Of a stretch of 64,000 nucleotides of DNA, positions 3,304-25,400 are shown one piece after another. Made by a program: the position numbers and the translations under genes. The notes below the pieces were generated by a model. It saw nothing but the letters and a program-made list of their open reading frames with translations, was not told the origin of the DNA and did no database searches. The DNA comes from Linnemannia hyalina (taxonomy: Eukaryota; Mortierellomycota; Mortierellomycetes; Mortierellales; Mortierellaceae), in assembly GCA_019671135.1 (NCBI GenBank), contig JAHRHY010000021.1, positions 372,001 to 436,000 of the forward strand, read 5' to 3'. How positions within the stretch are numbered: position 1 is the stretch's first letter; each line of letters opens with the position of its first letter.

Positions 3304-3897
3304 ATGGCCAACATAATGACGCTCGATAAGCTTAGAGTGATGGAGGCAAGGGGCGATGTCATCAGCTGGGAATACAGGCCGCCCAAAGGAAACATCTGGA
3401 CTCTCCAAGATATCCGCGACCGCGATTGCTTTGGCAGGGTCTTCGTGTGCGGGAACTCTGAGGAGTCGTACAAGCTCATGACGAGCGTCGTCGAGAAGGT
3501 TAAAGTCATCATGCGGAGACGTCGATGGTACATTGACGAGTTGCACGAACTCGATCCTGGAAGCAAGTACTTGGGTCTGAACGTGGGACATACCTTGGAG
3601 ATCCACTTGAAGCTCCGGACATGGAGAGGCCTCATCTCCCACAACGACCTCGTGCTCACGATGCTGCATGAGCTGGCCCATATCATTAACTCCTCCCACA
3701 ACGACGCCTTCTACGACCTTTTCTACAGATTGAAAGCAGAGTATGAAACTCACTATGGCGTCAAACTATCCACCAAGACTCGTACCACACAATGCGCCAA
3801 CGGCGTTGGGCCTGAGGAACAGAGGAGGAAGCGTGTGTTGAAATGGGAGCGGTTTTTTAGAAAGCTTTTTAGGATCAAAGATAATGAACGTTCATGA
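3304..3897 (+). CDS. Wss1-like WLM-domain metalloprotease
   Basis: 197-residue intronless protein starting at the ATG at 3304. Residues ~119-140 carry the zinc-metalloprotease signature HELAHIINSSH (HExxH plus a third histidine), followed by NDAFYDLFYRLKAEYE, the usual end of the WLM (Wss1-like metalloprotease) domain. Upstream, YLGLNVGHTLEIHLKLR matches the LGLNxN..I.LRLR block of the family. WLM proteases act in DNA-protein crosslink repair with Cdc48 and SUMO. This copy ends soon after the catalytic domain, and no long SUMO- or Cdc48-interacting tail is visible, so it may be a short paralogue. The C-terminus is basic (RRKR, RKLFR). Confidence 0.8.
   Translation: MANIMTLDKLRVMEARGDVISWEYRPPKGNIWTLQDIRDRDCFGRVFVCGNSEESYKLMTSVVEKVKVIMRRRRWYIDELHELDPGSKYLGLNVGHTLEIHLKLRTWRGLISHNDLVLTMLHELAHIINSSHNDAFYDLFYRLKAEYETHYGVKLSTKTRTTQCANGVGPEEQRRKRVLKWERFFRKLFRIKDNERS

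Positions 3898-7723: not shown

Positions 7724-7758
<35 letters not shown>
7724..7758. repeat. GT dinucleotide microsatellite
   Basis: An uninterrupted GT run. The homology shared with the right-hand inverted module near 25.3 kb starts just after it, so the run marks the left breakpoint of the duplication. Confidence 0.9.
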
Positions 7759-7760
<2 letters not shown>

Positions 7761-7812
7761 ACACGTGTAAAAATCACTCCAGGGGATCCGTGCGAAATAA
7801 TCGCAGTGCAGA

Positions 7813-7854
7813 TTTCTCGAAGTTTCGAACCCTTAAGACACGCGAGTATAAAAG
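7813..7854 (+). promoter_or_regulatory. Heat-shock element and TATA box, left module
   Basis: TTTCTCGAAGTTTCG at 7813-7827 is three contiguous alternating pentamers (nTTCn nGAAn nTTCn), a perfect heat-shock-factor site. TATAAAAG follows at 7847-7854. A long pyrimidine-rich stretch then runs to ~8320. The same arrangement is present inverted at 25230-25272. This predicts an HSF-responsive promoter firing toward the tandem array. Confidence 0.6.
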
Positions 7855-7859
7855 GGGTC

Positions 7860-8320
7860 TTTTCCCTCTGTCGTCTCTTTTCTCCCTTTCCTTTCTTCCT
7901 TTCTTCCTTTCTTTTCTTCCTTTCTCCTCACCCCACTCACTCGCCAGCCAGGACCAACAAGGACCAGGACCAAATCAAAACCATTCAAGCAAAGGGCGAA
8001 GACGAGAGGCACGACAGCGGACAAGAGCAACTACCGCTCTTTTTACGCGATCACGCGTACTTTCCTCTGTTTATCCTCCCAAGCCAACGCGTCCTCAAAG
8101 TAAACAAACAAACATTCACTTCCTTCCTTCACCCTTCCCTCTCCCTTCTCTCCCCTTCTCTCCCCTTCTCTCCCCTTCTCTCTCCCTTCTCTCTCCCTTC
8201 TCTCTCCCTTCTCTCTCCCTTACCTCACCCTTCTCTCTCCCTTCTCTCTCCCTTACCTCTCCCTTCTCTCTCCCTTCTCTCTCCCTTACCTCACCCTTCC
8301 CTCTACCTTCATTCCCCTGC
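7860..8320 (+). repeat. Pyrimidine-rich leader with CCCTTCTCTCT minisatellite
   Basis: Downstream of the TATA box the strand is almost purely C and T, with repeated CCCTTCTCTCT and CCCTTACCTCA units from ~8130 to 8310. Long open frames cross it only because it lacks stops. The inverted module at ~24785-25225 has the same composition with a different number of units. Confidence 0.75.
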
Positions 8321-8480
8321 CACTACCTCCACCACCAACCACAATCAACAGTACTCAGCAATCAACACGAAAACAGCAATCAGTCCCATCTTACCTCTAT
8401 CTCTCCCTCCTTCCCTCTGGTGCCCAATTGTTGCAATCAACCTTCCCTTTGCTAACATCGTCTCCCTATTCTTTTGACTA

Positions 8481-8564
8481 GATGCCAGCAAGACTAGCAG
8501 CCTGCTAGGCGAGGCCATAACTGACAACGGCATCTTCTGAATCAGCACCTGGACGTCTGTGAAG
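8481..8564 (+). ncRNA. Putative first exon of the tandem-array transcript
   Basis: The 84 bases before the first splice-donor-like sequence (GTAAGTATCT at 8565) are conserved in the inverted copy at 24534-24617. They follow the promoter and leader and end in GTGAAG before the donor. A short open frame from ATG 8481 stops quickly, so a non-coding spliced RNA is more likely than a protein. This is inference from layout alone. Confidence 0.35.
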
Positions 8565-10190
8565 GTAAGTATCTAAAAAGAAGCCGGTCGACTGCGTAAG
8601 CGGTGGGAGGCATGAAGGATGTGGCGACGCGACAACAGCGGTATCGGGGCTCTAGCAGCGACTCGGCTGGTCGGTCTCATCTGGTTGGGGATCCCTGTTG
8701 CTTTTTTGTCCCGGGGTACCCCCAGCGGAAGGGTGAGAAGTTGGCCACTGGGAGGGTTAGAGGTGGCTGCTGTCTAGCGGCGTCCCATTCTTCATGGCTC
8801 TTGGACACCCTGTGGTGGCCGGGGCCAATTTGGATGACTTGCTAGACGGTGCACAGCGGTGAGGTGCAAAGTTCGAAGACTAACCGTCTTTTTTATCTCC
8901 TTTTGCTATCCATTCATCTATATACACCACGCCTACATCAAACACTTCTCGATGAGCAACGTGTGATCAGGAGCTGGGTCAGCATAAAGGCAAGTATCTA
9001 GAAAGAAGCCGGTCGACTGCGTAAGCGGTGGGAGGCATGAAGGGTGTGGCGACGCGACAACAGCGGTATCGGGGCTTTAGCAGCGACTCGGCTGGTCGGT
9101 CCCATCTGGCTGGGGATCCCTGTGACTGATTTGCCCCGGGGTACCCTCAGCGGAAGGGTGGGAAGTTGGCCACTGGGAGGGTTAGAGGTGGCTGCTGTCT
9201 AGCGGCGTCCCATTCTTCATGACTCTTGGACACCCTGTGGTGGCCGGGGCCAATTTGGATGACTTGCTAGACGGTGCACAGCGGTGAGGTGCAAAGTTCG
9301 AAGGCTAACCGTCATTTTTTTTTCGTTTTGTTTTCCATTCATCTATATATACCACGCTTACATCAAACACTTCTCGATGAGTTGTGTGTGATCAGGAGCT
9401 GGGTCAGCATAAAGGCAAGTATCTAGAAAGAAGCCGGTCGACTGCGTAAGCGGTGGGAGGCATGAAGGGTGTGGCGACGCGACAACAGCGGTATCGGGGC
9501 TCTAGCAGCGACTCGGCTGGTCGGTCTCATCTGGTTGGGGATCCCTGTTGCTTTTTTGTCCCGGGGTACCCTCAGCGGAAGGGTGGGAAGTTGACCACTG
9601 GGAGGGTTAGAGGTGGCTGCTGTCTAGCGGCGTCTCATTCTTCATGACTCTTGGACACCCTGTGGTGGCCGGGGCCAATTTGGATGACTTGTTAGACGGT
9701 GCACAGCGGTGAGGTGCAAAGTTCGAAGACTAACCGTCTTTTTATATCTCCTTTTGTTCTCCATTCATCTATATACCACGCCTGCACCAAAAATTATTTG
9801 ATGAGTTGTGTGTTTTCAAGAGCCGGGCCAACATGAAGGCAAGTATCTGGAAAGGGGTGCCGGTCGACTGCCTTGCGATGGGAGGCATGGACTTTGTGAT
9901 GACGCGACAACAGCGGTATTGGGGCTCTTGCAGCGGCTTAGGTGGTAGGCTTCTCATCTGTCTGGATATCACTGCGACTAATTTGTCACGGGGTACCCCG
10001 AGTAGAAGGGTGAGAAGTAGGCCACTGAATGCTTCAGAGGTCGCTGCTGTTTAACGCAATATCTTGGTTCATGGCTCTTGGATCTTTTGTTATGAAAGTC
10101 GAGCCTGTTTGAATAACTTACTAACTGCTGCAGAAACCGCGAGATGCATATATCAAAGGCTGGCTGTCCATCATAGATACCTCTCATCTC
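8565..10190 (+). repeat. Left 425-bp tandem array (3 full units plus a diverged fourth)
   Basis: Units start at 8565, 8990, 9415 and 9839 (spacings 425, 425, 424). Each begins with a donor-like G(T/C)AAGTATCT and a conserved GC-rich core of ~300 bases. Next comes GACTAAC, resembling a branch point, then a pyrimidine-rich tract, and an AG followed by GGAGCTGGGTCAGCATAAAG before the next unit. The fourth unit is clearly more diverged. The core encodes no conserved protein: frames differ by stops between units. The array is nearly identical, inverted, to 22860-24533. Confidence 0.88.
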
Positions 10191-10694: not shown

Positions 10695-11399
10695 CTAGAT
10701 CTGCTGCAAAGCCTGAAGAGCCTGGAGTCTTCTGTCGTAAGATCGTCGTCTGTCCAATTCTCTCCTAGGGTTACGCGCTGCGTCGATGCCGTTCCACCCG
10801 CCGTGGATGCGTTTGGCGACATCCTGAACCTCCGCGCGAAAATACAGCTCTGTCGGGATAACCGTGTGATGAGGCTCTGTGGCGACAGCGTCAACTCCTG
10901 CCATCACCAGATCTGACTTGGTGATGGCGTATATAGGGATCAAAGTCATGATCGCGACAAGTCCTCGGTTAACATCCTCTTGTCGCTCAGAGACGGTGTT
11001 GGTCCCGTCGACATAGCTGATGGTCTCGCCGCGGAACCGGAAATTGTGACCCATTTCGTTGGTGCGGCAGCGACAGCAAAGTGATAGAGTTGGTCCACCT
11101 TGGATGGCAGTCGCGAGCGGCATGTCAGAAGGGAGTGGTCGCCCTTTAGTGACGGAAGAACAGCGACCGCAGATATATCCAGACCGGAGGCATACTGCTG
11201 TCATTGCGTGGGCGACGGGCGGGTTGGTGATGTCGTAGCCTCCATTTTGGCACATGGTCGACCAGACGGGAAGCGCACGGACATGCTCGAGCCACGCGCG
11301 GTCAACTGTTGAGGTGTGAGCCAATGCCGCAGGGGGAAGGTGGTCGATGATCATGTGGATGATCTCGGGTGGAAAGATAGGAAGGTGTTGGTCGGCCAT
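10695..11399 (-). CDS. F-box protein fused to an XPA-like domain
   Basis: 234 residues from the ATG at 11399. Residues ~6-45 are an F-box (FPPEIIHMIIDHLPPAALA, then VDRAWLEHV..LPVW). The rest follows the order of the neighbouring XPA-like family: a first CxxC (CGRC), a second cysteine cluster (LCCRCR), YAITKSDLVMAG matching the ITKTEA..Y block, and LYFRAEVQDVAKRIHGGWNGIDAAR matching KMYEE.DVL..AR..YGGDVGI.NAR. I infer an SCF adaptor whose substrate-binding half is the XPA-like domain. The frame is open for another 100 codons upstream through 18-bp repeats. The shared promoter structure argues for the 11399 start. Confidence 0.65.
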   Translation of the reverse strand: MADQHLPIFPPEIIHMIIDHLPPAALAHTSTVDRAWLEHVRALPVWSTMCQNGGYDITNPPVAHAMTAVCLRSGYICGRCSSVTKGRPLPSDMPLATAIQGGPTLSLCCRCRTNEMGHNFRFRGETISYVDGTNTVSERQEDVNRGLVAIMTLIPIYAITKSDLVMAGVDAVATEPHHTVIPTELYFRAEVQDVAKRIHGGWNGIDAARNPRRELDRRRSYDRRLQALQALQQI

Positions 11400-11416
11400 G
11401 GGTGTTTGTTGTAGAA

Positions 11417-11560
11417 GAGATTCTTGTTGTAGTAGAGATATTTGTTGTAAAGGAGATATTTGTTGTAAAGGAGATATTTGTTGTAAAGGAGATATTTGTT
11501 GTAAAGGAGATATTTGTTGTAAAGGAGATATTTGTTGTAGAGGAGATTCTTGTTGTAGAA
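11417..11560 (-). repeat. 18-bp tandem repeat, 8 units, upstream of the F-box/XPA-like gene
   Basis: Eight 18-base units (plus strand GAGATATTTGTTGTAAAG and variants) lie directly 5' of the predicted start codon. The period keeps frame and would encode SPLQQI hexapeptides if translation began at the upstream ATG (11699). I treat it as leader sequence. Confidence 0.85.
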
Positions 11561-11574
11561 GTGAGGTTGTATGA

Positions 11575-12050
11575 GCAGGATGTGTTGAAAAGAAAAGACG
11601 AACCCCGTCGTTAAATGTCAATCCACCTGGAGCCAACAGAAAGAAAATCTTGTTGGTCGGTGATGGTGATAAATGACTAGATGTATCAAAAGAAACCATG
11701 AGGACATGTTGATCTCGCAGGGTTGCTTCAACTTTCTCGAGCTAAGCCCTACTGATGCGTCTCTCAGACATGGTGTCATTGCTTGCCAGTTCTTTTTTCG
11801 AAAAACGAAGCTTATTAAATTGGTTGAGCATGCACAAGGGAGCCGCGGGCAACAGGGAGTATTCGCTTTGATTGTAAAGTTTTATTTGTAGTCGTTGATC
11901 GTTGTTTGTTGAAGAAAAGAAACGAAAAGGAACAAAAAGAAATGAGAAGGAAGACTAGAGGTCAGTTTAACAGCCTCTTGCTTTATTTGCACCAGACAGT
12001 ACTATCCATCAGTCACATCTTCGGAACTTAGCCCATTCATGCCCACACCA
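11575..12050 (-). promoter_or_regulatory. Shared upstream/promoter module, copy 1 (F-box/XPA-like gene)
   Basis: Read on the minus strand this matches 20900-21480 (upstream of the XPA-like gene at 21620) and in part 22360-22750. Shared landmarks are the GGCTAAGTTCCGAAGATGTGACTGATGG-type block, AAGCTT..TTTTCGAAAAA, CTGAGAGACGCATCAG, TTTCTTTTGATACATC and the GGGGTTCGTCTTTTC leader. The arms are inverted relative to one another. Confidence 0.7.
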
Positions 12051-13037
12051 TTATGTTTTCCTATAATTATGCATCCCACTGAGAAGAACAATGGCAGGTG
12101 GATGAAGACGAACAAAAAATAAACGACAAGGGCATGAAAAGGATATGTAAAGAAAGCGAGGTTGCGGCTTAGGGCAGATGATGAGTCCATCGCCACCACC
12201 AAGTGGATCGAGATCCAGTAAGAGGAAAGAATGGAAACGGGATAGAAATTGGGCAAAGCAACCAAGTAATACATGATACACAACCTCAATGCCATTCCTC
12301 AATACCATTGAAAGTAAACGTACTGCAAAAGGATAATGGAGTTGTAAAACAAGGAATGATTATGGGATGTGTATTGTGATTATGCTGTTCCTCGAAGAAC
12401 TGTGTTTGCTCTCAATTCTGGAGTCAGCGCTCATTGTAGATTATTATTTCTACCTCTTGCTCCTCTTAGCCATGTGGTCGTTGTCGACAGTTTTTTTTCA
12501 CCTAAATTTCCTTCTTTTCCAGCAACACAGGCGTTAAAGAGGAGAGGAAGAGAGGGACAGAGGAGAGTAATGGTGTTTTTTGCTGTCGACTTTTTTAGCC
12601 TTTGATAGTTTTGCCTTTTGACGTGTTCGCTGTGCTCTCTCTTCAAAAAAATCAACACTCCTTTGCTTCAACGTCAATTGAAGTCTTTGCTTATGATCAA
12701 GGAGAATCACAAGAATGGTATAGACTGGCTGCTTTGTGGAAACAAAGAATGCCAAATGTCGCTCCTTCAGGCAGTTTCATAAAAAAGTAAAGGATCATGT
12801 TGCGAGGAACGCTACCACAATAAAGGTTTTCCTGCGGAAGCCGTGGCTACCTTCGAAAGTAGCGATGGTGGCGGTTGATTCAACTCTGTCACCTTGAGCC
12901 TAATATTTTCATATATAACCCCTTACTTGCGTTCTGGTTCTTTCCTTTTTCTTCATCTCTTTTCTATAAGACGTTCTAACAACAATACCCACGTAAAATC
13001 ACCCTCGTAACAAATCAACCTACTGAGTCGATAAACC
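12050..13037. other. Intergenic; carries a diverged copy of 7590-7710
   Basis: 12447-12575 resembles 7590-7710 in the same orientation (shared CATGTGGTCGTTGTCGACAG, then GAGGAGAG..AGAGGGA.AGAGGAGAGT). The 3' part (12905-13030) is a TATA-like, pyrimidine-rich promoter (ATATATAACCCC at ~12911) for the XPA-like pseudogene. No other gene was seen. Confidence 0.45.
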
Positions 13038-13648
13038 ATGGCCAATCCCAACCGTCCCCCCCGCCATGCCAAGAATGAAATAACCGTTTTCCTTTTTGTG
13101 GGCTCCAGCACCCACTCCCCGTGCAGATTGGACATGTTGGCCACTCTCAACCTGTTCTTATGTGCCTCCTGTACAGACGCAACCGACTCGAAACCCACCC
13201 AGAGCCTTACCCTCACCAGATGGAAACCTACATGGATACCCTCTTTGGAGCCCAGATCGTGCCCCGAATTACCCTGCTCGAAGCGAATCTGCATTACTTC
13301 ATGAACGAACCCCATCTTCAAGATCTTCCAAACGAAGAGGTTAGTTTTGTCGGGCTGGATAGCCAGAGATATCGCCTCCGGATGTTTAAAGAGAAGGACG
13401 TTCTCGACAGAGCTCGACTGGAGTATAGTGGCGATGTCGGGATCGCGAACGCCCGTAAGGTGTTTGTTCAACCTGGAGAGGAGGCCCATCAGGCCCCTGT
13501 TGGACCTATCCGCGAGAGAAGGAACCTCATTCGTCAGGCGTTCTGGAAGGTTGGCATCTTTGCTGCCTCAGAACTGCTGTTCGTGCATAGATTTGTAGAG
13601 CACAGTGAGGGAAACCTGCACGATATCGTTAATCTCTATGGTCCCTAG
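13038..13648 (+). pseudogene. XPA-like family member A, disabled
   Basis: From the ATG at 13038 the frame is lost in a run of seven C (13056-13062). The correct frame then meets TGA at 13076-13078, exactly where the second cysteine of the first CxxC is expected (reads C-Q-E-stop). The second pair is also broken: C-L-L-Y in place of C..C. Downstream the domain is well preserved: VPRITLLEANLHY, then MFKEKDVLDRARLEYSGDVGIANAR, then RERRNLIRQAF, ending at 13648. AATAAA lies at ~13780. The long intact tail with damage confined to the N-terminus suggests recent inactivation. Translation from an internal start would give a zinc-finger-less protein. Confidence 0.65.
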
Positions 13649-14482
13649 GTTGACTTTCCCCTTTTCCGTTGTCCCCCTCCTTTTTGCCTTGGCACCTTCT
13701 TTTTGTCTCTTTTCCCCTCTCACCCGTTTTTTAGTCACTTCTTTTGCCTCTCCTCATTCAGTTCTTTGTTTTCTCTACAATAAAAATCAGTTTCCATTGA
13801 TACAGAGGTGATGTTTTGTGGCTGTTTTGAGTATGCATGTATAACAGATGCGAAGGAAGGATATCCACTCCGATGCATACCCAAGGAGGCAGGGGATACT
13901 TCCAATGAATTGCTCCTTTTTGTGACAATCCGCCTTGGGGCTGACAAAAAATTGATGGCGTTAGAGCGGCGAAGCGCTCAGACAATAAGCAAACACGAGC
14001 AAGGAGGACCAGGACCGATGTATTCTAGGCCTGCATAATATGAAATGATCGATAAGAGAGCGATGACATTACGGTGGCGAATGTTTTTTTTTTTGCTCAA
14101 AACGAACGCTACAGCTAGAAACCTAGTTGATATGCAGAGACAACGGAACGAAGTGCCAGAATGCCACGAGCTTGTATTTCATTCTCACACATTCCATAGC
14201 TTATCCTTGAACCCCTATCCAGAAACGGACTAATGAAAGTTTTTTTTAGTGTACCTTGGCCTTTGCCATTAGCCATTGATATAAGAAACAGACAAAACGC
14301 CTTACTTGCAAAAAAAGAGGCTTGATTGTCTTCAAAATGGCGATACACCTCAGCTTAAATACTGCTTGCATTAGTGCCCGCTCTCACTCTCTTTTTCTCT
14401 CTCCTTTTTCTTCTATTTCTTCAGCTTCCTTCATTCCTCCTACCTTCACCCAACAGCACTTGCGCAAGAAAGCCTTCTCAGA

Positions 14483-15136
14483 ATGCCCCCCAAACAACCA
14501 CTCGATTCTACAAACCATAAGTCGAACAAGCGAGATACGAAAACGAACACCTGCAAGTTCTGCAAGGGACGTTCTCCTGCTGAAGGACTCGATCGAGTCC
14601 TCCCAGTACTGTCTCGACGTTTTGGCGTCGTGGGGACGACGGTTATTCTCTGCCTCGATTGCAGACGCAAAGAGTTTGCCATCAAAAGCGAGCCCTATCC
14701 TCCAACAGTCGAGTCGTATATGGACACCGCCTACGGAGGCAGGATCGTGCCTCGGATCAACGAGAACGAGGCGAGATTGCATTATTGCTTGAAAGACGAC
14801 CAGTTTCGAAACTTGCATCACATCATCGTACGTCCTGTCAGAACATCCCGTGACCCCTACGAAGTCATGTTGTACGACGAAAAAGCCATTCTCAAACAAG
14901 CTCGGTGGGTACACGGCGGTGACGTCGGAATCGCGAATGCCCGTCAGTTCTTTGCTGGCCAAGGAGAGCTTGTCGAGCTGCCCCCTGTTGGACCTGTCCT
15001 GGAGAGACGGAACAAGATCCGACAGGCGTTCTTGATGAGAAAGGTCTATGCGTCCTCAAGGTTACCTCAAATCAGGGACTATGTCAAAACTGGACGGGGA
15101 AACTTCGAGGAGATAGTCGACACCTTGGCTGTCTAG
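14483..15136 (+). CDS. XPA-like zinc-finger protein, family member B
   Basis: Intact 217-residue intronless protein from ATG 14483. It has CKFC (residues ~24-27) and CLDC (~58-61) as a likely four-cysteine zinc site, then IVPRINENEARLHYCL, corresponding to ITKTEAK..Y.L of XPA/Rad14. MLYDEKAILKQARWVHGGDVGIANAR follows, in the position of the XPA MKLY..L.I...L.VWG segment. The C-terminus has the family signature PPVGPVLERRNKIRQAFL. XPA binds damaged DNA in nucleotide excision repair. This family is shorter and has wider cysteine spacing (~30 residues), so DNA repair function is not implied. AATAAA is at ~15357. Confidence 0.65.
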   Translation: MPPKQPLDSTNHKSNKRDTKTNTCKFCKGRSPAEGLDRVLPVLSRRFGVVGTTVILCLDCRRKEFAIKSEPYPPTVESYMDTAYGGRIVPRINENEARLHYCLKDDQFRNLHHIIVRPVRTSRDPYEVMLYDEKAILKQARWVHGGDVGIANARQFFAGQGELVELPPVGPVLERRNKIRQAFLMRKVYASSRLPQIRDYVKTGRGNFEEIVDTLAV

Positions 15137-15699
15137 TTCACCATCTTTTACTTGCATCCATTCATTTCCTTCTCTTTTTTTCGTCATTTTGTTCGCACAA
15201 TCTTTCTCACACCGCCAGTTTTTCTCCCGCTCCACTGCCCTCTCATTTTTTTCATCCATTTTTCCTTGGCGGCGACGCATTTCTTTGTCTTCCTACGTTC
15301 CCTGTATTGCCTTGCCATTCCTGTCTACCTTTGGTTAGTAGGACTCTCTATCTGCAATAAATATTCGTTTAAATTTGAATCTGACTGATCGCAGCTTGTC
15401 TGAAGAAAGAAAATGTACTTTGCAAACACCATCGCCCTTTCCCCCGATTGATTGACGAAAGACGATTACTGAGCGAAGCTTTGTCCATAAACCTTATTTC
15501 AGAAAACACCAAAGTTCATGAGGGCTTGATTACCTTCCTTGAGCTTGAGGTACATAATATTTTGAGCAACCTTCATGTCTGCTCTCTCTTTCTCTCTTTG
15601 TCTCTCTCTCTGTTCATCCTCAGCACCACGCGACCCTCTCTCTCTCTCTTATTCACATACAACAATTGACACAGTCAGTAACCCCTTCAATTATATACC

Positions 15700-16428
15700 A
15701 TGTCAAACAACAACAACAACAACAACCTCATGCAATGTCAAGACCGCAATAAACACCATCCTTTTTAGGCATTGATGGGACTCCTTCCGGTCCAATTTAG
15801 AGATGCAAGCGGCTTTCATAAAGCTCACCTCTGCCTCAAGTGCAGATGCAAGGCATTCAAGTTCATGCAGGAGCCCTATCTTCATCAAGTCGCTGCCTAC
15901 TCGGACCCCATCTTTGGAGCCATGATCGTGCCACGGATCTCTGGGAGCGAGGCGAACCTACAGTACGGCCTGGACGACTCCTTTCTCGAACTCTTGCCTC
16001 ACATCACTGCACGTTTTGTTCCCTCAGCTGGCGAGGTTTATATGATCAAAATGTACGAGGAAAAAGAGATTCTCGACAGGGCTCGTTTGAAATATGGAGG
16101 CGATGTCGGTATCGCCTATGCCCCTGGATGGTTTGCTGCACAAGGAGAGCAAGTCGAACTGTCCTCTGCAGGAGTTTTCCGAGAAAGAAGGGAGAGGATC
16201 CGAGAAGTGTTTCTGGCGAAAGGCCACTTTGCGGCGCCCGAGTTACCGTTCGTCAGACTTTATGTTCAAGCTGACCAGGGCGATCTAGAAGTGATCGTCC
16301 GGACCTATGATATTGGCTGGTTTCACCATTTCACCATTAGCCTTTTTGTCCACGTAAGCTACCTTTCTGATTCGCCACGGAACTTTTCTCCCCCTGATCC
16401 TCACTGTTTTTTTCATGCTTTCTCTTAG
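15700..16428 (+). pseudogene. XPA-like family member C, disabled
   Basis: The ATG at 15700 opens with seven Asn codons, then C-Q-D-R, where Arg replaces the second cysteine of the first CxxC. A TAG follows at 15766-15768. Beyond it the same frame continues with an intact CLKC, VPRISGSEANLQYGL, MYEEKEILDRARLKYGGDVGIAYA and RERRERIREVFL. The usual stop after YDI is lost (TGG), so the frame runs ~36 codons further to 16428. The start loss and end extension both point to a pseudogene. A downstream start would yield a protein lacking the first cysteine pair. Confidence 0.62.
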
Positions 16429-16959
16429 CTTTTGATAGTTGTGCTTTTGGACATGTTCATTTCCCCAAATGAACGATCTCTTTTTTGTTCCATCATCAAA
16501 CACAATAAACTCTTCATTTCAATATGATATTGATTGGGTCTTGGCTTGTGATCACAGAAATACACAAGTTGTGCACAGAATAAAAAAAGTGAGAGCGAGT
16601 GCGCCATTTTTTTTTGCTAGGGTTCGTGTTTGTGAAGTCTTCATGAAATCAAAGTAAGTATGTCTTGCTTCGCTCCTTCAGGTACCTTCACCGACAATGA
16701 AAGGAACTAACATGTGTCAAGAAAAAACGCGTTTATATTTCTTGAAGAATGAAAGAGTGCTAAAAAAATCCTTCTGCAGGAGCTGTGGTTGCTTACGAAA
16801 GGGACGATGAGGCGATGATTCGACCTTTTACCTGCGACCACACCTATTTGTTCTTAAATACCAATTTGAGTTTTTTCTTTTCTTCTTCGTTCACTTGCTC
16901 TTTCTCCCCAGACAACAACACCCACGTCCTTTCACACGACCAACCCTCCGCAACACATC

Positions 16960-17586
16960 ATGTCGAATCGCAGCAACCCTCGACCAACATGTCAGGACTG
17001 CGGAGAACGTTTTCCTAACAGGGGGTTCAATCAACCCCTTCTGGTGAACATTACACAGAGAGGTGTCTTAGAAACTCACTATCTCTGTCTGGAGTGCAGA
17101 CGTAAGGCATACAACACCTCCCAGGAACCACTCCCTTCAGGAGTCGACGCGTACGCTGACCATATCCATGGACACACGATCGTGCCTAGGATCACCAAGA
17201 CGGAAGCGAGACGACAGTATTGCTTGACTGACTGCCATTTCAGAGATATGCGGCATGTCATCACCGCACACTCTGTCAGGACTGCAGATTACGTTTACGA
17301 CGTTAAGCTGTACGAGGAAAGAGACATCATCAAGGTGGCCCGCCAGGTGTGGGGTGGCGATGTTGGGATTACCAATGCTCGAGAGTGCTATTCTTGGCAG
17401 CATGGGGGTGTCACTTATACGCCCACGCCGCCAGTAGGAATTGAACGAATGAGAAGGGACAGGATTCGTCAGGCCTTCTTGGATTGGGGATTCTTTTTTG
17501 CGGCGCCGACACTGCCATGTGTGTCGAACTATGTCAATTATGGTCAAGGACACTTAGGCAGGATCGTCGCGATCTATGGAAACTAG
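16960..17586 (+). CDS. XPA-like zinc-finger protein, family member D
   Basis: Intact 208-residue intronless protein. CQDC (~11-14) and CLEC (~44-47) are the paired cysteines. IVPRITKTEARRQYCLTDCHF is the clearest XPA-like block in the window, almost the XPA ITKTEAK..Y.LKDCDL pattern. KLYEERDIIKVARQVWGGDVGITNAR follows, with WG as in XPA. The C-terminus is RMRRDRIRQAFL and ends near YVNYGQGHLGRIVAIYGN. AATAAA is at ~17709. It lies 0.5 kb downstream of disabled copy C and in the same orientation. Confidence 0.68.
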   Translation: MSNRSNPRPTCQDCGERFPNRGFNQPLLVNITQRGVLETHYLCLECRRKAYNTSQEPLPSGVDAYADHIHGHTIVPRITKTEARRQYCLTDCHFRDMRHVITAHSVRTADYVYDVKLYEERDIIKVARQVWGGDVGITNARECYSWQHGGVTYTPTPPVGIERMRRDRIRQAFLDWGFFFAAPTLPCVSNYVNYGQGHLGRIVAIYGN

Positions 17587-17589
17587 GTT

Positions 17590-18372
17590 ACTACTGCCGG
17601 GGGGGTCTTTTTCGTCCATGCCCTTCTCATTGCCTCCTTTTAACATCCGTTTCCCCTCTGCACATCTTTTGTCTACTGCCCTGTAGTTGTCTGTCTTTTG
17701 ATTTTAAGTAATAAAGATCATTTCCCTTTGGATTCAGAAATGTTGTGATAACTTCCTCGATGAAGAGAACAAGGCAGCTGTCCAGGTAAAATGACGTGAG
17801 AGATGAACAAAGACCATTTCGATCATGCTCTTGGGTACCACGATGGGGTTTTTTACACGTCGCCCATTAGAGGCTGAAAATCTTTGCTGACGGTGGGGAA
17901 GAAGTGGACAGTAAAGATAAAAAAAAGGGGTACGATGGCTGAGCGAAGTCGATCAAACTATAGCAACTGTACAGTCAATAAAAAGAAGAGCGACTTATTG
18001 TGATACTATTTTTTTGTTAGTGCTTGCTCATGAGTGCTTCAGACAACACTCATCGCGACAAACACACAACACTGCTGATGCCAAAACACCATCAGATCAG
18101 GTTCAATAACAAGACAACGCGTTCAAAACCAACACGAACGTAAATAGATCGCCATTGGCTGGCATCTCCAAGGGCAGCCTTAAAAATAAAGTGCCTCCCA
18201 ATGTTGCGAATAAGGCTTTGCTCTTGTATTGCTGAATGTGGAGGAACATTAATCATCTACGCTCCTTCAAAAATCTCCTTCATATGTCGTACACTTCCTT
18301 TCCTTCTCTCTATTTTTTCTTTGTTTTATCACAACCTTCACACTCCACAACCAACACGAATCAACAACCACT
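17590..18372. other. Intergenic between family members D and E
   Basis: Contains the 3' end of member D (AATAAAG near 17710) and a pyrimidine-rich leader just before 18373. No other feature was recognised. Confidence 0.4.
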
Positions 18373-18978
18373 ATGCCCACCAATTCCACGCGGTGCCAGG
18401 ACTGCAAACGCCACTTTCCTACAAAAGGGCTTGAACGCCTCCTTCCAGTGCGACTCAGATGGACAGGCGAGTTGGGGATACTTGATCTCTGCGTCACGTG
18501 TAGACGCAAGGCCTACAACACTTACAAGGAACCCTACCCGCCAGGCGTGGACGTATACATAGACCCAAAGACCAACGTCAGCATCTTACCTCGTATTACT
18601 CTAACTGAGGCGACAGCCCAGTACTGCTTGCTTGACGGACACCTCGAATCGTTGCCGTACATTCAGGTGCATGCTCTCGAGGCGGTTAATGGCGTGTACA
18701 AAATCAAGATGTATGAAGAGAGACTCGTTCTCGAAAAGGCGCGCTGTCTGTATGGAGGCGACATAGGGATTGATAACGCCCGTGACGCCTTTTCTTGGCA
18801 GAAAGGAGGGAGTATTGACTTGCCACCCGCAGGAGCTGTTCGAGAGAGAAGGGACAGGATTCGCGAGAAGTTCCTTCAGAGAGAGCTTTTCGCGCCATCA
18901 AAGTTGCCAACCATTCAGTGTTACATTGAATATGGCCGTGGAGACTTGCGGGAGGTTGTCAACGCCCTTGCTATCTAG
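18373..18978 (+). CDS. XPA-like zinc-finger protein, family member E
   Basis: Intact 201-residue intronless protein from ATG 18373. CQDC (~8-11) and CVTC (~41-44) form the putative zinc site. ILPRITLTEATAQYCLLDGHLESLPYIQ matches the ITKTEA..Y.L..DLE block. KMYEERLVLEKARCLYGGDIGIDNAR and RERRDRIREKFL complete the family pattern. AATAAA lies at ~19190. Same orientation as A-D. Confidence 0.66.
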   Translation: MPTNSTRCQDCKRHFPTKGLERLLPVRLRWTGELGILDLCVTCRRKAYNTYKEPYPPGVDVYIDPKTNVSILPRITLTEATAQYCLLDGHLESLPYIQVHALEAVNGVYKIKMYEERLVLEKARCLYGGDIGIDNARDAFSWQKGGSIDLPPAGAVRERRDRIREKFLQRELFAPSKLPTIQCYIEYGRGDLREVVNALAI

Positions 18979-19376
18979 GCGATATTCTTCTCTTTTGCGC
19001 TCATTTCCCTCCTTTTCTTCACTTTCTTTGTTTTGTACAGCCTTTCCTTCAACCCCACTTTTTGTTCTACTTCTCCGCCACCTTCTTTTCGATCTTTCAT
19101 TTCTTGTTCTCTTTATGGCGATTTTTCCTTTTGATTTCTTTTATTCTTTGTAATACCCGCCTTTTTTCTCTCTCCCTGCTTTTCTTTGACAATAAACCTC
19201 GTTTTTTCTTTCATCCACCCTTGTAATGAATTGTGTTGTCTAGCATTGATGAAAGAAAAAACGACCACCCGCCGAATGAAAAAGGAACAGTCGATCCCGA
19301 CCCGTGCCCCTAGTAATTGAAAATAATTTTGGTGGCGTCAGACAAGCAAGGATCTGAAAGAAGACTGGGCGGCCTG

Positions 19377-19499
19377 TACAGATGGATTACAAAAGTTTTG
19401 CAACAAAAAATATGAATTTTTTTTGAGGGAAAGGTTGAAAGTGAAAAGAAGCCCTATTTGTTTTTGTTTTTGTTACAAAACTTTTGTAACCCATCTGTA
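19377..19499. mobile_element. Tc1/mariner-type MITE
   Basis: Terminal inverted repeats of ~34 bases: left CAGATGGATTACAAAAGTTT..., right ...AAACTTTTGTAACCCATCTG. They are flanked on both sides by TA (19377-19378 and 19498-19499), the expected target duplication of Tc1/mariner elements. The interior is ~50 bases with no coding capacity, so it is a non-autonomous miniature element. Confidence 0.75.
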
Positions 19500-20629
19500 C
19501 AATGATGAGAGGTGGTGAATAATAAGGTGTTTCTTTTGGCCTTGACTGGCGGAAGATGACCGCAATGAAAGATCCCCCCTACCAGTCATAATATGGAAAT
19601 AAGCGATTTTGGCGATGGATCGAATACTCTTTGGCAATTCCTCTTTCTTTCTTATATGCCCTTGCTATCGCCTTTCGCCTTTCTCCCTCATCCCGTCACC
19701 GGTAAAGAGACATAAAAATGAGGATAGGTTGGGATGTCCTTCTTACCACCAGTCGCTGATCATTGGTCCGTTTGGAAGAAGGAAATGCACACTCAGACCA
19801 TGCATCACAAGCAAGCAAACAAAGAAAAGAAAGAGGGGATCCTGCGGACCTAAAACCACAATTTAGCCTGTGTGCGTGTACAAGGGGAACTAGGGTTCGA
19901 GACTTTTCTCTGTTCCCCACATGATGTATTGTACTCATGTTGACAAAAAAAAGGCGGGAACACCATTTACTACAGGCACATTGCCACCTCCACAACTGCA
20001 GACATCCGAGCATGCTCTAACATTCTTTTTTTTCCTATCGAAGACGCTTCTCGATTGCAATGGGTTGGATGTTCCTTGCAATTGCTAAAGTCCGCAACAT
20101 GACTTCAATGGTTTGACAAACAAAGAAAGGGAGTCCTCGACGCCTCTATCTTATTTTTCACAATATAGCGAGGGTACTATGATATCATATTGTAAGGGAG
20201 TTAGAAGTGGATATAAACTGATCATGTGAAATGTCAAATGAGAAAGTGAAAACCAGTTCTTTTGGTGACGAACGCGTACGTTCTTGCTCGTTCTGATTCG
20301 TAAGGTCTCTATGCTCGTGTTTGGTAATCAAGCAACTTCTTTGTTGATTCAGCTCCATGTGCAATTACGAAATAAATCAGTCAATCACATCGCCTCTGTG
20401 AACTGCTGAACTATCAACGGTACAAAAAAGGAAAACGTCATGCAAACTTAAAGGGCAGTCCTATGATCATTGTGTTTATTCGCCTCTGCCATTGTCTATC
20501 AACTTTCCATGTATGAATTTATATGTGTGTGGGTATGTTGGCTGTTGTTGCAAGAACTTTGTAGGAAAAAACGTGCTTGGATTAGTCAGCAGAAGTCTCT
20601 CTCTCAGACAATTGAGCGGCAATAGAAGG

Positions 20630-20691
20630 GAAGCTCTGACCCCAGCCGCTTCGTCAGCAAAAATTGCAGACGAGGCTGGGTTCAGAGCTTC
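20630..20691. repeat. Long imperfect hairpin
   Basis: GAAGCTCTGACCCCAGCC..CGTC (from 20630) is complemented by GACGAGGCTGGGTTCAGAGCTTC (to 20691), with a ~13-base loop. It may be a small structured RNA, a foldback element or a terminator-like structure. Confidence 0.6.
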
Positions 20692-20899
20692 ATTCAGGAG
20701 TAATAAATTTTGGTGGCGTTCAAGGAACCACTGAGAACAGAAATATAGCGCGAACGCGACTGTAGGTTAATACACAACTGGCTGCAAACTGTACACAGAT
20801 GATTGCATGATGATTGGAACTGAGAGGCGATGCCCTACAAAAAAAAGGATAATTGCCGATGCTGTGTGATAAATAGATCTATAGAAAAACAGGATGGGG

Positions 20900-21480
20900 T
20901 GGGCATGAATAGGCTAAGCTCCGAGGATGTGACTGATGGATCGTGTTGTCTGGTTCAAAGAAAGCAGGAGGCTTTAAGTTGACATCGACTCTGCGTTCTC
21001 GGTTTTTTTTTTTTTTTTTGTACAGCGTTTCGTTCTTGCATACCTGTTGCTCCACCAACTAAACTTTACAATCAAAGCGAATACTCCCTATTGCCCGCAG
21101 TTCCCTTGCGCATGCTCAACCAATTTAATAAGCTTCATTTTTCGAAAAAAGAACTGGCAAGCAAAGACACCATGTCTGAGAGACGCATCAGTAGGGCTTA
21201 GCTCGAGAAAGTTGAAGCAACCCTGCAAGATCAACATGTCCTCATGGTTTCTTTTGATACATCTAGTCATTTATCACCATCACAACAGATACATCTAGTC
21301 CTTTATCACCATCACAGCAGATACATCTGGTCCTTTATCACCATCGCAACAGATACATCTAGGCCGTTATCACCGTCACAACAGATACATCTAGTAATTT
21401 ATCACCAACCGACGAGAATATTTTTTTTGTTTGCTCCAGGTGAATTGGTATTTAAAGAAGGAGGTTCGTCTTTTCATTTT
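20900..21480 (+). promoter_or_regulatory. Shared upstream/promoter module, copy 2, with 32-bp VNTR
   Basis: Inverted counterpart of 11575-12050 and direct counterpart of 22360-22750. It includes five 32-base units (GATACATCTAGTC.TTTATCACC.TCACAACA; unit starts at 21256, 21288, 21320, 21352, 21384), a TATTTAAAG TATA-like site at ~21450 and the GGTTCGTCTTTTC leader. The 32-base period breaks frame, so the ATG at 21244 is not the protein start. Confidence 0.7.
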
Positions 21481-21619
21481 TCCTTTCTTTTCTTTTCGTT
21501 ACTTTTCACTCTATTTCCTTCCTTCAACAAGCAACAATCAATCACCACCACTCAATACGCAGCACTCTCCAACCCACACACAAAAACCCAATAACCAACA
21601 TCCACAAATACACCTAACC

Positions 21620-22204
21620 ATGAATGTCCAGTGCAGCCACTGTGGGAGGATGTGCGTCAATGTGGGGCATGAAGTTGCTCTTCCCGTCCGTGCTCAGGGA
21701 CAGGAGGAGCGTTTGTTTTGCAAGCAGTGCCGACAGAGGATGTGCATGGAGAAGGTGGTTGTGGAAGAGGTTCCAGCCCGTTTACTTGGATACGCCAACG
21801 AGTACTGTGGACAGAACGTCGTCCCGATGCTTACCAAGTCCGAGGCAAAAATGATGTATAACCTCAGAAACCGTGACCTAGAGACCATTCCCATTGAGAT
21901 CGGTTATCCTGTTAGCGCTGACGGCAACTGTGTCACGGCGTTCCTTGTCAACGAGCGGGATGTTTTGCTTGTTGCTCGGGGAGTCCATGGACTTCAAGTG
22001 GGCGTTGACAACGCTCGGTTCCTTATCGGTGCGGCGCCATTCCCCGAGGAAGATATCCTCAACCGAAGAGACGCCATCCGAACCCTCTTCCTTCAGAGAC
22101 GATATTTCGCTCGGTCCGACCTTCCACGCATTCAAGCGTTTGTTCAAGGCCAGCAAGGTGGTGCAGCGGAGCTTTTGGCGATCGTCCACGAGATGGCCAT
22201 CTAG
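21620..22204 (+). CDS. XPA-like zinc-finger protein, family member F (divergent)
   Basis: 194 residues from the ATG at 21620, preceded by ACC. CSHC (~5-8) and CKQC (~36-39) are the cysteine pairs. VVPMLTKSEAKMMYNLRNRDLETIPIEI matches the XPA ITKTEAK.EY.LKD.DLE block very well. FLVNERDVLLVARGVHGLQVGVDNAR and NRRDAIRTLFLQRRYFARSDLP complete the family pattern. It is the most diverged of the intact copies. Its promoter is shared with the F-box fusion gene instead of members A-E. AATAAA occurs at ~22393. Confidence 0.66.
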   Translation: MNVQCSHCGRMCVNVGHEVALPVRAQGQEERLFCKQCRQRMCMEKVVVEEVPARLLGYANEYCGQNVVPMLTKSEAKMMYNLRNRDLETIPIEIGYPVSADGNCVTAFLVNERDVLLVARGVHGLQVGVDNARFLIGAAPFPEEDILNRRDAIRTLFLQRRYFARSDLPRIQAFVQGQQGGAAELLAIVHEMAI

Positions 22205-22359
22205 GCCATCTGTCCTTCCCTTCTCTTGAGTTAGCTTTTCATTTTCTTTACTTGCTTCTTTTTTTTTTGTCTTCTTTCTCCTTTCAATACCATCTTTCTT
22301 TTCTTTACCTTTCTTCATTCTTCATTTTACGTCTTGGTCGCTCTCCCCTTTTTTTATCT

Positions 22360-22750
22360 ACAGCGTTTCTTTCTTGCATACCTGTTGCTCCAAATAAACT
22401 TTACAATAAAATCGAATACTCCCTGTTGCCCATAACTCTTGTGCATGCTCAACCAATCTAACAAGCTTCATTTTTCAAAACATAACTGGCAAGCAATGAC
22501 ACCATGTCTGAGAGACACAGCAGCACAGCTTTACTCAAGAGAGTTGAAGCAATCCAACATGTCTTATGATTTCTTTTGATACATTTAGTCATTTATCACC
22601 AACCAACAAGATACATCTAGTCATTCATCACCAACCAACAGGTACATCTAGTCATTTATCGCAAAGCAACAAGATATTTTTTTGTTGGCTCCAAGTGGGC
22701 TCCAAGTGGATTGGTATTCAAGAAGGGATTTTTCTTTCCACAGTTCTTTT
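22360..22750 (+). promoter_or_regulatory. Shared upstream/promoter module, copy 3 (driving a truncated F-box)
   Basis: Direct repeat of the 21020-21480 region: same CAGCGTTTC.TTCTTGCATACC block, AATACTCCCT.TTGCCC, CATGTCTGAGAGAC, TTTCTTTTGATACAT, and three 32-base units instead of five. It sits immediately 3' of family member F. Confidence 0.65.
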
Positions 22751-22778
22751 CAACTCATCCAAGGCCGACCAACAGCGT

Positions 22779-22890
22779 CATGTCATCTCATGTCATCCCA
22801 CCCCAGATCCTCTCCATGATCATCGACCACCTTCCTCTTGCGACGTTGGCCCGGCTCTTGAAAACACACAACTCATCAAATAATTTTTAG
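22779..22890 (+). pseudogene. Truncated F-box start fused to the tandem array
   Basis: ATG 22779 begins SSHVIPPQILSMIIDHLPLATLARLL, an F-box closely resembling that of the gene at 10695-11399. After about 24 residues the sequence becomes the end of the 425-bp array and stops. The array or a rearrangement therefore cut off the rest of an F-box/XPA-like gene. Confidence 0.6.
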
Positions 22891-24533
22891 TGCAGGCGTG
22901 GTACATAGATGAATGGAGAACAAAAGGAGAACAAATGACGGTTAGTCTTCGAACTTTGCACCTCACCGCTGTGCACCGTCTAGCAAGTCATCCAAATTGG
23001 CCCCGGCCACCACAGGGTGTCCAAGAGTCATGAAGAATGAGACGCCGCTAAACAGCAGCCACCTCTAACCCTCCCAGTGGTCAACTTCCCACCCTTCCGC
23101 TGAGGGTACCCCGGGGCAAATCAGTCACAGGGATCCCCAGCCAGATGGGACCGACCAGCCGAGTCGCTGCTAAAGCCCCGATACCGCTGTTGTCGCGTCG
23201 CCACATCCTTCATGCCTCCCACCGCTTACGCAGTCGACCGGCTTCTTTTTAGATACTTGCCTTTATGCTGACCCGGTTCCTGATCATATGCAACTCTTCA
23301 AGAGGTTTTTGGTGTAGGCGTGGTGTATATAGAAGAGTGGAGAACAAAAGGAGAACAAATGACGGTTAGTCTTCGAACTTTGCACCTCACCGCTGTGCAC
23401 CGTCTAGCAAGTCATCCAAATTGGCCCCGGCCACCACAGGGTGTCCAAGAGTCATGAAGAATGGGACGCCGCTAGACAGCAGCCACCTCTAACCCTCCCA
23501 GTGGTCAACTTCCCACCCTTCCGCTGAGGGTACCCCGGGGCAAATCAGTCACAGGGATCCCCAGCCAGATGGGACCGACCAGCCGAGTCGCTGCTAGAGC
23601 CCCGATACCGCTGTTGTCGCGTCGCCACACCCTTCATGCCTCCCACCGCTTACGCAGTCGACCGGCTTCTTTCTAGATACTTGCCTTTATGCTGACCCAG
23701 CTCCTGATCACACGTTGCTCATCGAGAAGTGTTTGATGTAGGCGTGGTGTATATAGATGAATGGAAAACAAAACGAAAAAAAAATGACGGTTAGCCTTCG
23801 AACTTTGCACCTCACCGCTGTGCACCGTCTAGCAAGTCATCCAAATTGGCCCCGGCCACCACAGGGTGTCCAAGAGTCATGAAGAATGAGACGCCGCTAG
23901 ACAGCAGCCACCTCTAACCCTCCCAGTGGCCAACTTCTCACCCTTCCGCTGGGGGTACCCCGGGACAAAAAAGCAACAGGGATCCCCAACCAGATGAGAC
24001 CGACCAGCCGAATCGCTGCTAAAGCCCCGATACCGCTGTTGTCGCGTCGCCACACCCTTCATGCCTCCCACCGCTTACGCAGTCGACCGGCTTCTTTTTA
24101 GATACTTGCCTTTATGCTGACCCGGTTCCTGATCACACGCAACCCTTCAAGAGGTTTTTGGTGTAGGCGTGGTGTATATAGAAGAGTGGAGAACAAAAGG
24201 AGAACAAATGACGGTTAGTCTTCGAACTTTGCACCTCACCGCTGTGCACCGTCTAGCAAGTCATCCAAATTGGCCCCGGCCACCACAGGGTGTCCAAGAG
24301 TCATGAAGAATGGGACGCCGCTAGACAGCAGCCACCTCTAACCCTCCCAGTGGTCAACTTCCCACCCTTCCGCTGAGGGTACCCCGGGGCAAATCAGTCA
24401 CAGGGATCCCCAGCCAGATGGGACCGACCAGCCGAGTCGCTGCTAGAGCCCCGATACCGCTGTTGTCGCGTCGCCACATCCTTCATGCCTCCCACCGCTT
24501 ACGCAGTCGACCGGCTTCTTTTTAGATACTTAC
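22860..24533 (-). repeat. Right 425-bp tandem array (4 units, inverted)
   Basis: Minus-strand units begin at 24533, 24109, 23684 and 23260 with AGATACTT(A/G)C on the plus strand, i.e. GTAAGTATCT for the first and GCAAGTATCT for the others. The units match the left array at 8565-9838 almost base for base. The final unit ends in the same ATTATTTGATGAGTTGTGTG variant as the third left unit, so the arms are a true inverted duplication with one unit gained or lost. Confidence 0.88.
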
Positions 24534-24617
24534 CTTCACAGACGTCCAGGTGCTGATTCAGAAGATGCCGTTGTCAGTTATGGCCTCGCCTAGCAGGCTG
24601 CTAGTCTTGCTGGCATC
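24534..24617 (-). ncRNA. Putative first exon of the right tandem-array transcript
   Basis: Inverted copy of 8481-8564, lying between the pyrimidine-rich leader and the first donor-like site. The role as an RNA exon is inferred from the conserved splice-like junction. Confidence 0.33.
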
Positions 24618-24784
24618 TAGTCAAAAGAATAGGGAGACCATGTTAGCAAAGGGAAGGTTGATTGCAACAATTGGGCACCAGAGGGAAGGAGGGAGAGATA
24701 GAGGTAAGATGGGACTGATTGCTGTTTTCGTGTTGATTGCTGAGTACTGTTGATTGTGGTTGGTGGTGGAGGTAGTGGCAGGGG

Positions 24785-25225
24785 AATGAAGGTAGAGGGA
24801 AGGGTGAGGTAAGGGAGAGAGAAGGGAGAGAGAAGGGTGAGGTAAGGGAGAGAGAAGGGAGAGAGAAGGGTGAGGTAAGGGAGAGAGAAGGGAGAGAGAA
24901 GGAGAGAGAAGGGAGAGAGAAGGGGAGAGAAGGGGAGAGAAGGGGAGAGAAGGGGAGAGAAGGGGAGAGAAGGGAGAGGGAAGGGTGAAGGAAGGAAGTG
25001 AATGTTTGTTTGTTTACTTTGAGGACGCGTTGGCTTGGGAGGATAAACAGAGGAAAGCACGCGTGATCGCGTAAAAAGAGCAGTGGGGGCTCTTGTCCGC
25101 TGTCGTGCCTTTTGTCTTCGGGTCCTGGCTGGCGAGTGAGTGGGGTGAGGGAAAAGGAAGAAAAGAAAAAAAGAAAGGAAGAAAGGAAGAAAGGAAAGGG
25201 AGAAAAGAGACGACAGAGGGAAAAG
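24785..25225 (-). repeat. Pyrimidine-rich leader, right module
   Basis: Purine-rich on the plus strand (GGGAGAGAGAAGG units). It is the inverted counterpart of 7860-8320 with a changed unit number. Confidence 0.7.
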
Positions 25226-25229
25226 ACCC

Positions 25230-25272
25230 CTTTTATACTCGCGTGTCTTAAGGGTTCGAAACTTCGAGAAAT
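25230..25272 (-). promoter_or_regulatory. Heat-shock element and TATA box, right module
   Basis: CGAAACTTCGAGAAA on the plus strand at 25257-25271 is a perfect three-pentamer heat-shock element, with the TATA box (CTTTTATA, plus strand) at 25230-25237. It faces the right array, so the two modules point toward each other. Confidence 0.6.
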
Positions 25273-25299
25273 CTGCACTGCGATTATTTCGCACGGATC

Positions 25300-25400
25300 C
25301 CCTGGAGTGATTTTTACACGTGTCCACTGCAGAGATTTTTACGCGCTTCCACTGCGGAGATTTTACACGTGTCCACTGCGGAGATTTTATTACGTCAACA
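25300..25400. repeat. Short direct repeats upstream of the right heat-shock promoter
   Basis: TTTTACACGTGTCCACTGC(A/G)GAGAT recurs about three to four times with a 27-30-base spacing, each containing an ACACGTGT E-box-like core or a variant. Only the first part is shared with the left module, where a GT run replaces the rest. Confidence 0.6.

Follow-up and report, generated by a model that had tools for sequence, protein, structure and literature searches.

The closest described systems to the genes considered here are XPA/Rad14 (Pfam XPA_C, PF05181), the proteins of Mortierellaceae in which an F-box is joined to an XPA_C domain (e.g. KI688_006771 and P0012) and the N-terminal domain of SLC30A9 (2ENK), the last belonging, unlike the array proteins, to a protein of a zinc-transporter family. 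The N-terminal extension of XPA carries partner-binding sites, and an F-box normally plugs a receptor into the SCF (Skp1-cullin-F-box) ubiquitin ligase. The subject of this analysis is an array of six related loci, designated as members A to F, at positions 13038-22204 of a stretch of 64,000 nucleotides of Linnemannia hyalina (the window, equivalent to positions 372001-436000 of contig C14), and the genome searches covered the L. hyalina assembly of 51.5 Mb. The array proteins share descent with the F-box + zinc + XPA_C proteins, and are separated from canonical XPA in the phylogenetic tree.

Like XPA/Rad14, the array proteins have the XPA_C fold over approximately 70-85 residues, with the (I/L)T.(T/S)EA motif ahead of the LY motif as in XPA, both being clearest in D and E. 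They differ from XPA/Rad14 by a longer zinc spacer, a zinc module outside the structural match, extra C-terminal helices, the lack of the XPA N-terminal region and the absence of the equivalents of W175, NP and R207. In common with the F-box + XPA_C proteins, they have CxxC..CxxC followed by an XPA_C-like domain and HGG.(V/I)GI, occur on contig C14 and group jointly with them apart from XPA; in contrast to these proteins, the intact array members have neither an F-box match nor the long N-terminus, and their C-terminal stretch is shared with L011, a relative encoded on contig C1. Both domains of the F-box relatives are already recognised by Pfam, and what is new is the F-box-less array, which is missed by the Pfam cut-off. 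No title on an F-box-joined or a free and multiplied XPA_C family was among those listed by searches of an open-access library, most subscription papers being outside this coverage. The XPA fold, joined to an F-box and then alone and multiplied, is a natural experiment on the uses of this fold beyond repair, in which the DNA-gripping residues are missing partly in the F-box proteins (Trp175 and Arg207) and further in the array (the NP loop too).

Array loci and gene models

All six loci are on the + strand, and the claim of the preliminary description that six family members lie within 9 kb was confirmed. Intact open reading frames (ORFs) were found at four of the six: B (14483..15136, 217 amino acids (aa)), composed of a zinc module, an XPA_C-like domain and a C-terminal stretch; D (16960..17586, 208 aa), with the highest XPA-likeness by Pfam score; E (18373..18978, 201 aa), with 47% identity to D; and F (21620..22204, 194 aa), the most divergent. 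These four are intronless and have two CxxC pairs each, features that had been ascribed to all six and do not extend to A and C, both decayed and both read from three-frame translations. In A (13038..13648), the family match contains one TGA, the ATG is out of frame with the conserved part, an in-frame stop lies within the first CxxC and a Tyr replaces one Cys of the second. In C (15700..16428), there is an in-frame TAG, the first CxxC is disrupted by the loss of a Cys and the normal stop is lost as well, resulting in a read-through C-terminus. The proposed order of elements, from the zinc pair through (I/L)T.(T/S)EA and an LY-type segment to GG, was borne out; the quoted motifs were found as ITKTEARRQY in D and LTKSEAKMMY in F, and are not uniform, with INENEA in B and, in F, LVNERD where other members have LYEE.

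When D was searched against its own genome, the other five loci were found with expectation values (E) of 5.5e-51 (E), 1.2e-41 (B), 3.7e-33 (C), 1.8e-30 (A) and 4.4e-13 (F), and D shares 84-87% identity along its whole length with two 208-aa homologues known from elsewhere. The family likeness is thus not due to chance, and the gene model of D is supported by the full-length identity of these two homologues. AATAAA occurs 76-220 nt past the stop at all six loci, compared with an expectation of 0.22 per 400 nt in this window. Family members were also found outside 13038-22204. A 151-aa ORF at 14337-14792, in another frame, overlaps the start of B, and the gene model P0006 of Mortierella sp. GBA39, which reads part of the frame of this ORF, is probably wrong.

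Counterparts in other assemblies were of B type (P0004 of L. elongata, 84% identical), D type (P0001 and P0002) and F type (P0007, P0008, P0010 and P0011, at 70-71%). The four Cys are kept in the five full-length readings P0001, P0002, P0004, P0007 and P0008; P0006, with its N-terminus read in another frame, is without them, and P0009-P0011 are shorter. P0006 and P0008 both come from Mortierella sp. GBA39, and since their contigs are equal at 13,919 and their locus tags close (_000783 and _000786), the B-type and F-type genes are probably neighbours there too. The ratios of nonsynonymous to synonymous substitution (dN/dS) among B, D and E were 0.34-0.39 by the NG86 method, imprecise at dS > 1; dS was lacking for 4 of the 15 pairs.

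Relationship to XPA

The Pfam gathering cut-off of XPA_C is 25 bits, the cut-offs of F-box-like and XPA_N (PF01286) being 24.3 and 27.1, respectively. XPA_C matched D (E 8e-5, 22.9 bits) and F (E 0.21, 12.0 bits) below the cut-off and gave no match in A, B, C or E at E <= 10, so that the cut-off was reached by none of the four intact members. XPA_N had no match in B, D, E or F at E <= 10, and L. hyalina XPA itself scored 22.1 with it, under the 27.1 cut-off. 

In searches against the PDB, human XPA occupied the first 5 of 11 rows for D alone (best E 2.7e-5); all five rows at E <= 10 for profile A4, built of 13 stand-alone proteins, were XPA (E 9e-6 to 4.4e-4); and for profile A6, headed by F, the first 5 of 9 rows were XPA (E 3e-6 to 1e-4), the remaining four having E >= 1. 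With the F-box relatives included in the profile, the XPA match improved to E 2.8e-12, and Rad14 and SLC30A9 came next. With hhalign, the probability of a match to an XPA/Rad14 alignment was 89% for A4 (E 2e-6) and 95% for A6 (E 5e-8), the target being of three sequences (L. hyalina XPA, human XPA and Rad14) and the E-values those of a single comparison. Structures of D and F were predicted with a mean local confidence (predicted local distance difference test, pLDDT) of 88 and 88.6, respectively (for F, AlphaFold2 with an alignment without F-box proteins). XPA/Rad14 topped the Foldseek and VIA-align lists for both models, with a match of approximately 70-85 residues that comprises the DNA-binding subdomain XPA_C and leaves the zinc finger outside, the whole-length TM-scores (template modelling scores) being low. 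D and F thus combine a significant profile match with the sheet-helix-hairpin/helix fold of the XPA_C family, and among solved structures the clear fold matches in the searches made here were XPA/Rad14 and SLC30A9 only.

The four Cys of the zinc module were paired with those of XPA by hhalign only across gaps, and the VIA alignments to XPA begin past this module. The module itself gave weak VIA matches, among them the endonuclease Hpy99I, the GATA-type finger of AreA and ribosomal proteins. The suggested XPA relationship is supported by profiles and models for one of the two domains: XPA-first profile hits and the XPA C-terminal fold were both obtained, and the zinc module is not clearly that of XPA. 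The further proposal of an array of stand-alone XPA domains overlooked the F-box + XPA_C relatives; B, D, E and F themselves are without an F-box (no Pfam match at E <= 10).

F-box relatives and phylogenetic tree

By profile search, XPA_C was found at two places in the L. hyalina genome, the canonical XPA on contig C2 (XPA_C 89 bits, Rad14 E 3e-43) and an F-box protein at C14:524384 (L002), which passes both Pfam cut-offs (XPA_C 34.6 bits, F-box-like 36.5 bits). Among the 18 database matches of the latter, its own record included, the precomputed Pfam annotation gives XPA_C in all 18 and an F-box model in 16; those of named origin come from Linnemannia, Mortierella, Haplosporangium and Dissophora, and a contig C14 protein is 100% identical to KI688_006771 of L. 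hyalina. Further, more distant F-box relatives were detected at C14:260077, 262813 and 382710, C1:699950 and C48:101547, the last being aligned over the zinc module only.

One of these relatives lies within the window next to the array, at 10695..11699 on the - strand (= C14:382710). It encodes an F-box-like protein of 334 aa (F-box-like E 1.7e-4, 21.7 bits, under 24.3) with CxxC..CxxC. The C-terminus (..GGWNGIDAAR..) is XPA-like and divergent, and Pfam found no XPA_C match in the protein. It is matched by the C14:524384 protein at E 3.8e-18 and 28% identity, and its placement in the tree is unsure, with a long branch of 1.95.

In the tree of 28 rows, all 13 F-box-less proteins formed a single clade (support 99/95) with L011 as its sister (97/96), and this clade and L011 have a common C-terminal stretch starting with RR. 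Twenty-five rows were on the non-XPA side, with true XPA apart (100/99), and L. hyalina XPA grouped with Rad14 (98/87). The array proteins therefore group with the Mortierellaceae F-box + XPA_C family and away from XPA, and a simple duplication of the XPA gene was rejected on the strength of this placement. The C14:524384 protein matches L011 over its residues 241-451, F-box included. A single loss of the F-box region would be the simplest reading of these branches. Left out of the tree were L017/L040 (C12, internal stop), L043, L039 (C8), the copies L012, L013, L020-L024 and L050, P0003 and P0005 (identical to B and F), P0006 (for its N-terminus), P0009 and P0011 (short), and 10 of the 18 F-box proteins matched by the C14:524384 protein; A and C were entered as open parts only, and P0010 (154 aa) without a zinc module.

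Two further F-box-less members, at C14:500854-501447 (+) and 532159-532752 (-), are 100% identical, lie 31 kb apart and flank the F-box + XPA_C gene 524384; the pair reflects either an inverted duplication of recent date or a segment duplicated in the assembly. Another F-box-like protein (E 2.1e-9), with no XPA_C match at E <= 0.001, is encoded at the window's left end (2-1972).

DNA-contact residues

The DNA-contact residues of XPA, as named in two reports, are W175, K141, K151, K179, R207 and R211 (PMC9739396, PMC6599211). Their equivalents were mapped in the array, in XPA/Rad14, in 8 of the 18 F-box proteins and in four further F-box-type rows (L011, L035, L036 and the window protein 10695-11699), the alignment of the hairpin being uncertain by a few positions. 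K141, NP169-170, an aromatic residue at 175, R207 and a basic residue at 211 were present in 3/3 XPA/Rad14 rows. In the intact array members, NP, an aromatic residue at 175 and R207 were each found in 0/4, K141 in 2/4, K179 in 2/4, K151 in 1/4 (as Arg in F) and a basic residue at 211 in 1/4 (as Lys in E; R211 itself in 0/4). By comparison, K141, NP, K/R179 and R211 were present in all eight F-box proteins examined. No Trp lies anywhere within the hairpin of the intact window members; in the F-type relatives P0007 and P0010, a Trp occurs a few residues further towards the N-terminus. The net charge of the XPA core is +1, +2, -2 and -1 for B, D, E and F, respectively, a weak measure given that the same stretch has -6 in Rad14 and -1 in L. 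hyalina XPA. The fold is retained, but several residues that grip the single-strand/double-strand junction have been lost, a loss seen in part already in the F-box relatives, and a decoupling from excision repair, with the canonical XPA separate and the junction residues lost, is plausible.

Proposed role and alternatives

An ancestral Mortierellaceae family combining an F-box, a zinc module and an XPA_C domain would have lost the F-box region, most simply once, and the F-box-less genes would then have multiplied by tandem and inverted duplication with birth-and-death turnover. In the F-box relatives, a ligand may be read by the zinc/XPA_C part, their SCF role being suggested by the F-box domain. 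The array proteins, in which a zinc module is combined with an XPA_C-fold domain and a short helical stretch at the C-terminus, would be the freed reading part, with a weaker grip on DNA, binding a similar ligand without recruiting the ubiquitin ligase. We therefore put forward, at a probability of roughly 0.4, that the function of B, D, E and F lies in contacts with protein partners, likeliest as adaptors or competitors of the F-box proteins and not as repair factors. The fuller scenario, in which the XPA reading head left excision repair, was fitted to F-box proteins as the ligand reader of a ligase and was then released as a fast-turnover array tuning or competing with those ligases, is speculative and rather doubtful as a whole.

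Several observations weigh against the partner-binding role and the history proposed for it. L011, the sister of the F-box-less clade, has no Pfam F-box match at E <= 1, its F-box being recognised from the pairwise match, and the branch to true XPA is long, with 1.18 changes per column on each side of the root. An aromatic residue at 175 and R207 are found in 0/8 F-box proteins, so that this loss is not special to the F-box-less proteins and part of it predates, or is independent of, the loss of the F-box; in the four other F-box-type rows, NP and K141 are each present in 1/4 (both in L011) and R211 in 2/4. K151 and K179 are not diagnostic, for among the XPA/Rad14 rows only human XPA has them, Rad14 and L. 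hyalina XPA being without. D retains the equivalents of K141, K179, the Trp of VWG and Y181, and at least this member might still touch DNA. Pairs with the decayed A or C, where dS was obtained, give dN/dS of 0.21-0.48, similar to the intact pairs; dN/dS thus speaks for past constraint and does not establish a present one.

The alternative that survives best, though somewhat unlikely, is that the array proteins are nucleic-acid-binding regulators whose XPA fold and zinc module bind DNA or RNA with altered specificity. The fold kept in the D and F models, the K141/K179 equivalents and the core charge of D, and the weak matches of the zinc module to ribosomal proteins, AreA and Hpy99I are in agreement with it; the absence of the NP loop, W175 and R207 in all four, the single basic residue at 211 and, as a weak measure, the core charges of the four speak against it. 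That the family is nearly functionless and self-multiplying, carried here by unstable inverted repeats, is improbable: the stops in A, C and the copies at C14:287k, 348k, 354k and C23, the richness of the region in inverted duplications and the similar dN/dS of the A/C pairs would fit such a family, but counterparts of B, D and F exist in other assemblies, the four Cys being kept in the five full-length readings, and the imprecise dN/dS among B, D and E points to constraint. An accessory excision-repair factor derived from duplicated XPA, for which homology to XPA speaks, is the least likely alternative and very improbable indeed, as the tree places the array apart from XPA, the proteins start 4-23 residues ahead of the first Cys and so are without the XPA N-terminal region, contact residues are lost and a canonical XPA is present.

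Duplication and neighbourhood

The array is enclosed by an inverted duplication with outer arms of 2.3 kb at 7757..10082 and 23020..25327, which are 90.7% identical in inverted orientation. A 425-bp tandem repeat is present in 3.5 copies within the left arm, at 8562-10050 (Tandem Repeats Finder), and in 3.9 copies at 22884-24536, in an array that overlaps the right arm. The inner inverted arms lie upstream of the F-box gene 10695-11699 and upstream of F: the region at 20880..21479 (+) is an inverted copy of the F-box gene's upstream region (11588-12065), in two blocks of 412 nt (85% identity) and 101 nt (82%). A third copy of this upstream region, with a short match to the F-box gene, is located at 22349..22850 (+) (21011-21355 versus 22349-22676, 82%; 11320-11404 versus 22850-22756, 75% over 95 nt), and is read as a putative F-box remnant truncated at the 425-bp repeats, beside the right arm.

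The 425-bp repeat was also found at C14:352k/357k (as an inverted pair), at C14:255k and on C5 at approximately 187, 584, 600 and 653 kb, and there were no family members among the genome matches at those C5 sites. Related inverted pairs flank F-type copies at 348k and 351-358k. A and C, together with the dispersed copies, which contain stops, show birth-and-death turnover within inverted segmental duplications, and inverted duplication is the likely engine of the copying. Carriage by a transposon was rejected: a transposase was found in none of the 13 other long ORFs of the window (Pfam E <= 0.001; 6/13 matchless), in the frame of a comparison for which no repeat-library search was made, and the 425-bp repeat occurs on C5 without the family.

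At C14 ~348.4-349.2 kb (L021:1394-2173), an F-type pseudogene is situated in a near-perfect palindrome with 382-nt arms, 99% complementary, and a 16-nt centre, within a longer imperfect palindrome. Tandem repeats of 32 bp (GATACATCTAGTC..) are present at 21256-21407, upstream of F, and at 22578-22676, upstream of the F-box remnant, and a unit resembling theirs occurs upstream of the F-type palindrome at 348k. The ORF 3277-3891 encodes a WLM domain (E 1.5e-25), the domain of the Wss1-like protease family; the position of this DNA-repair-type gene near the array is probably a coincidence.

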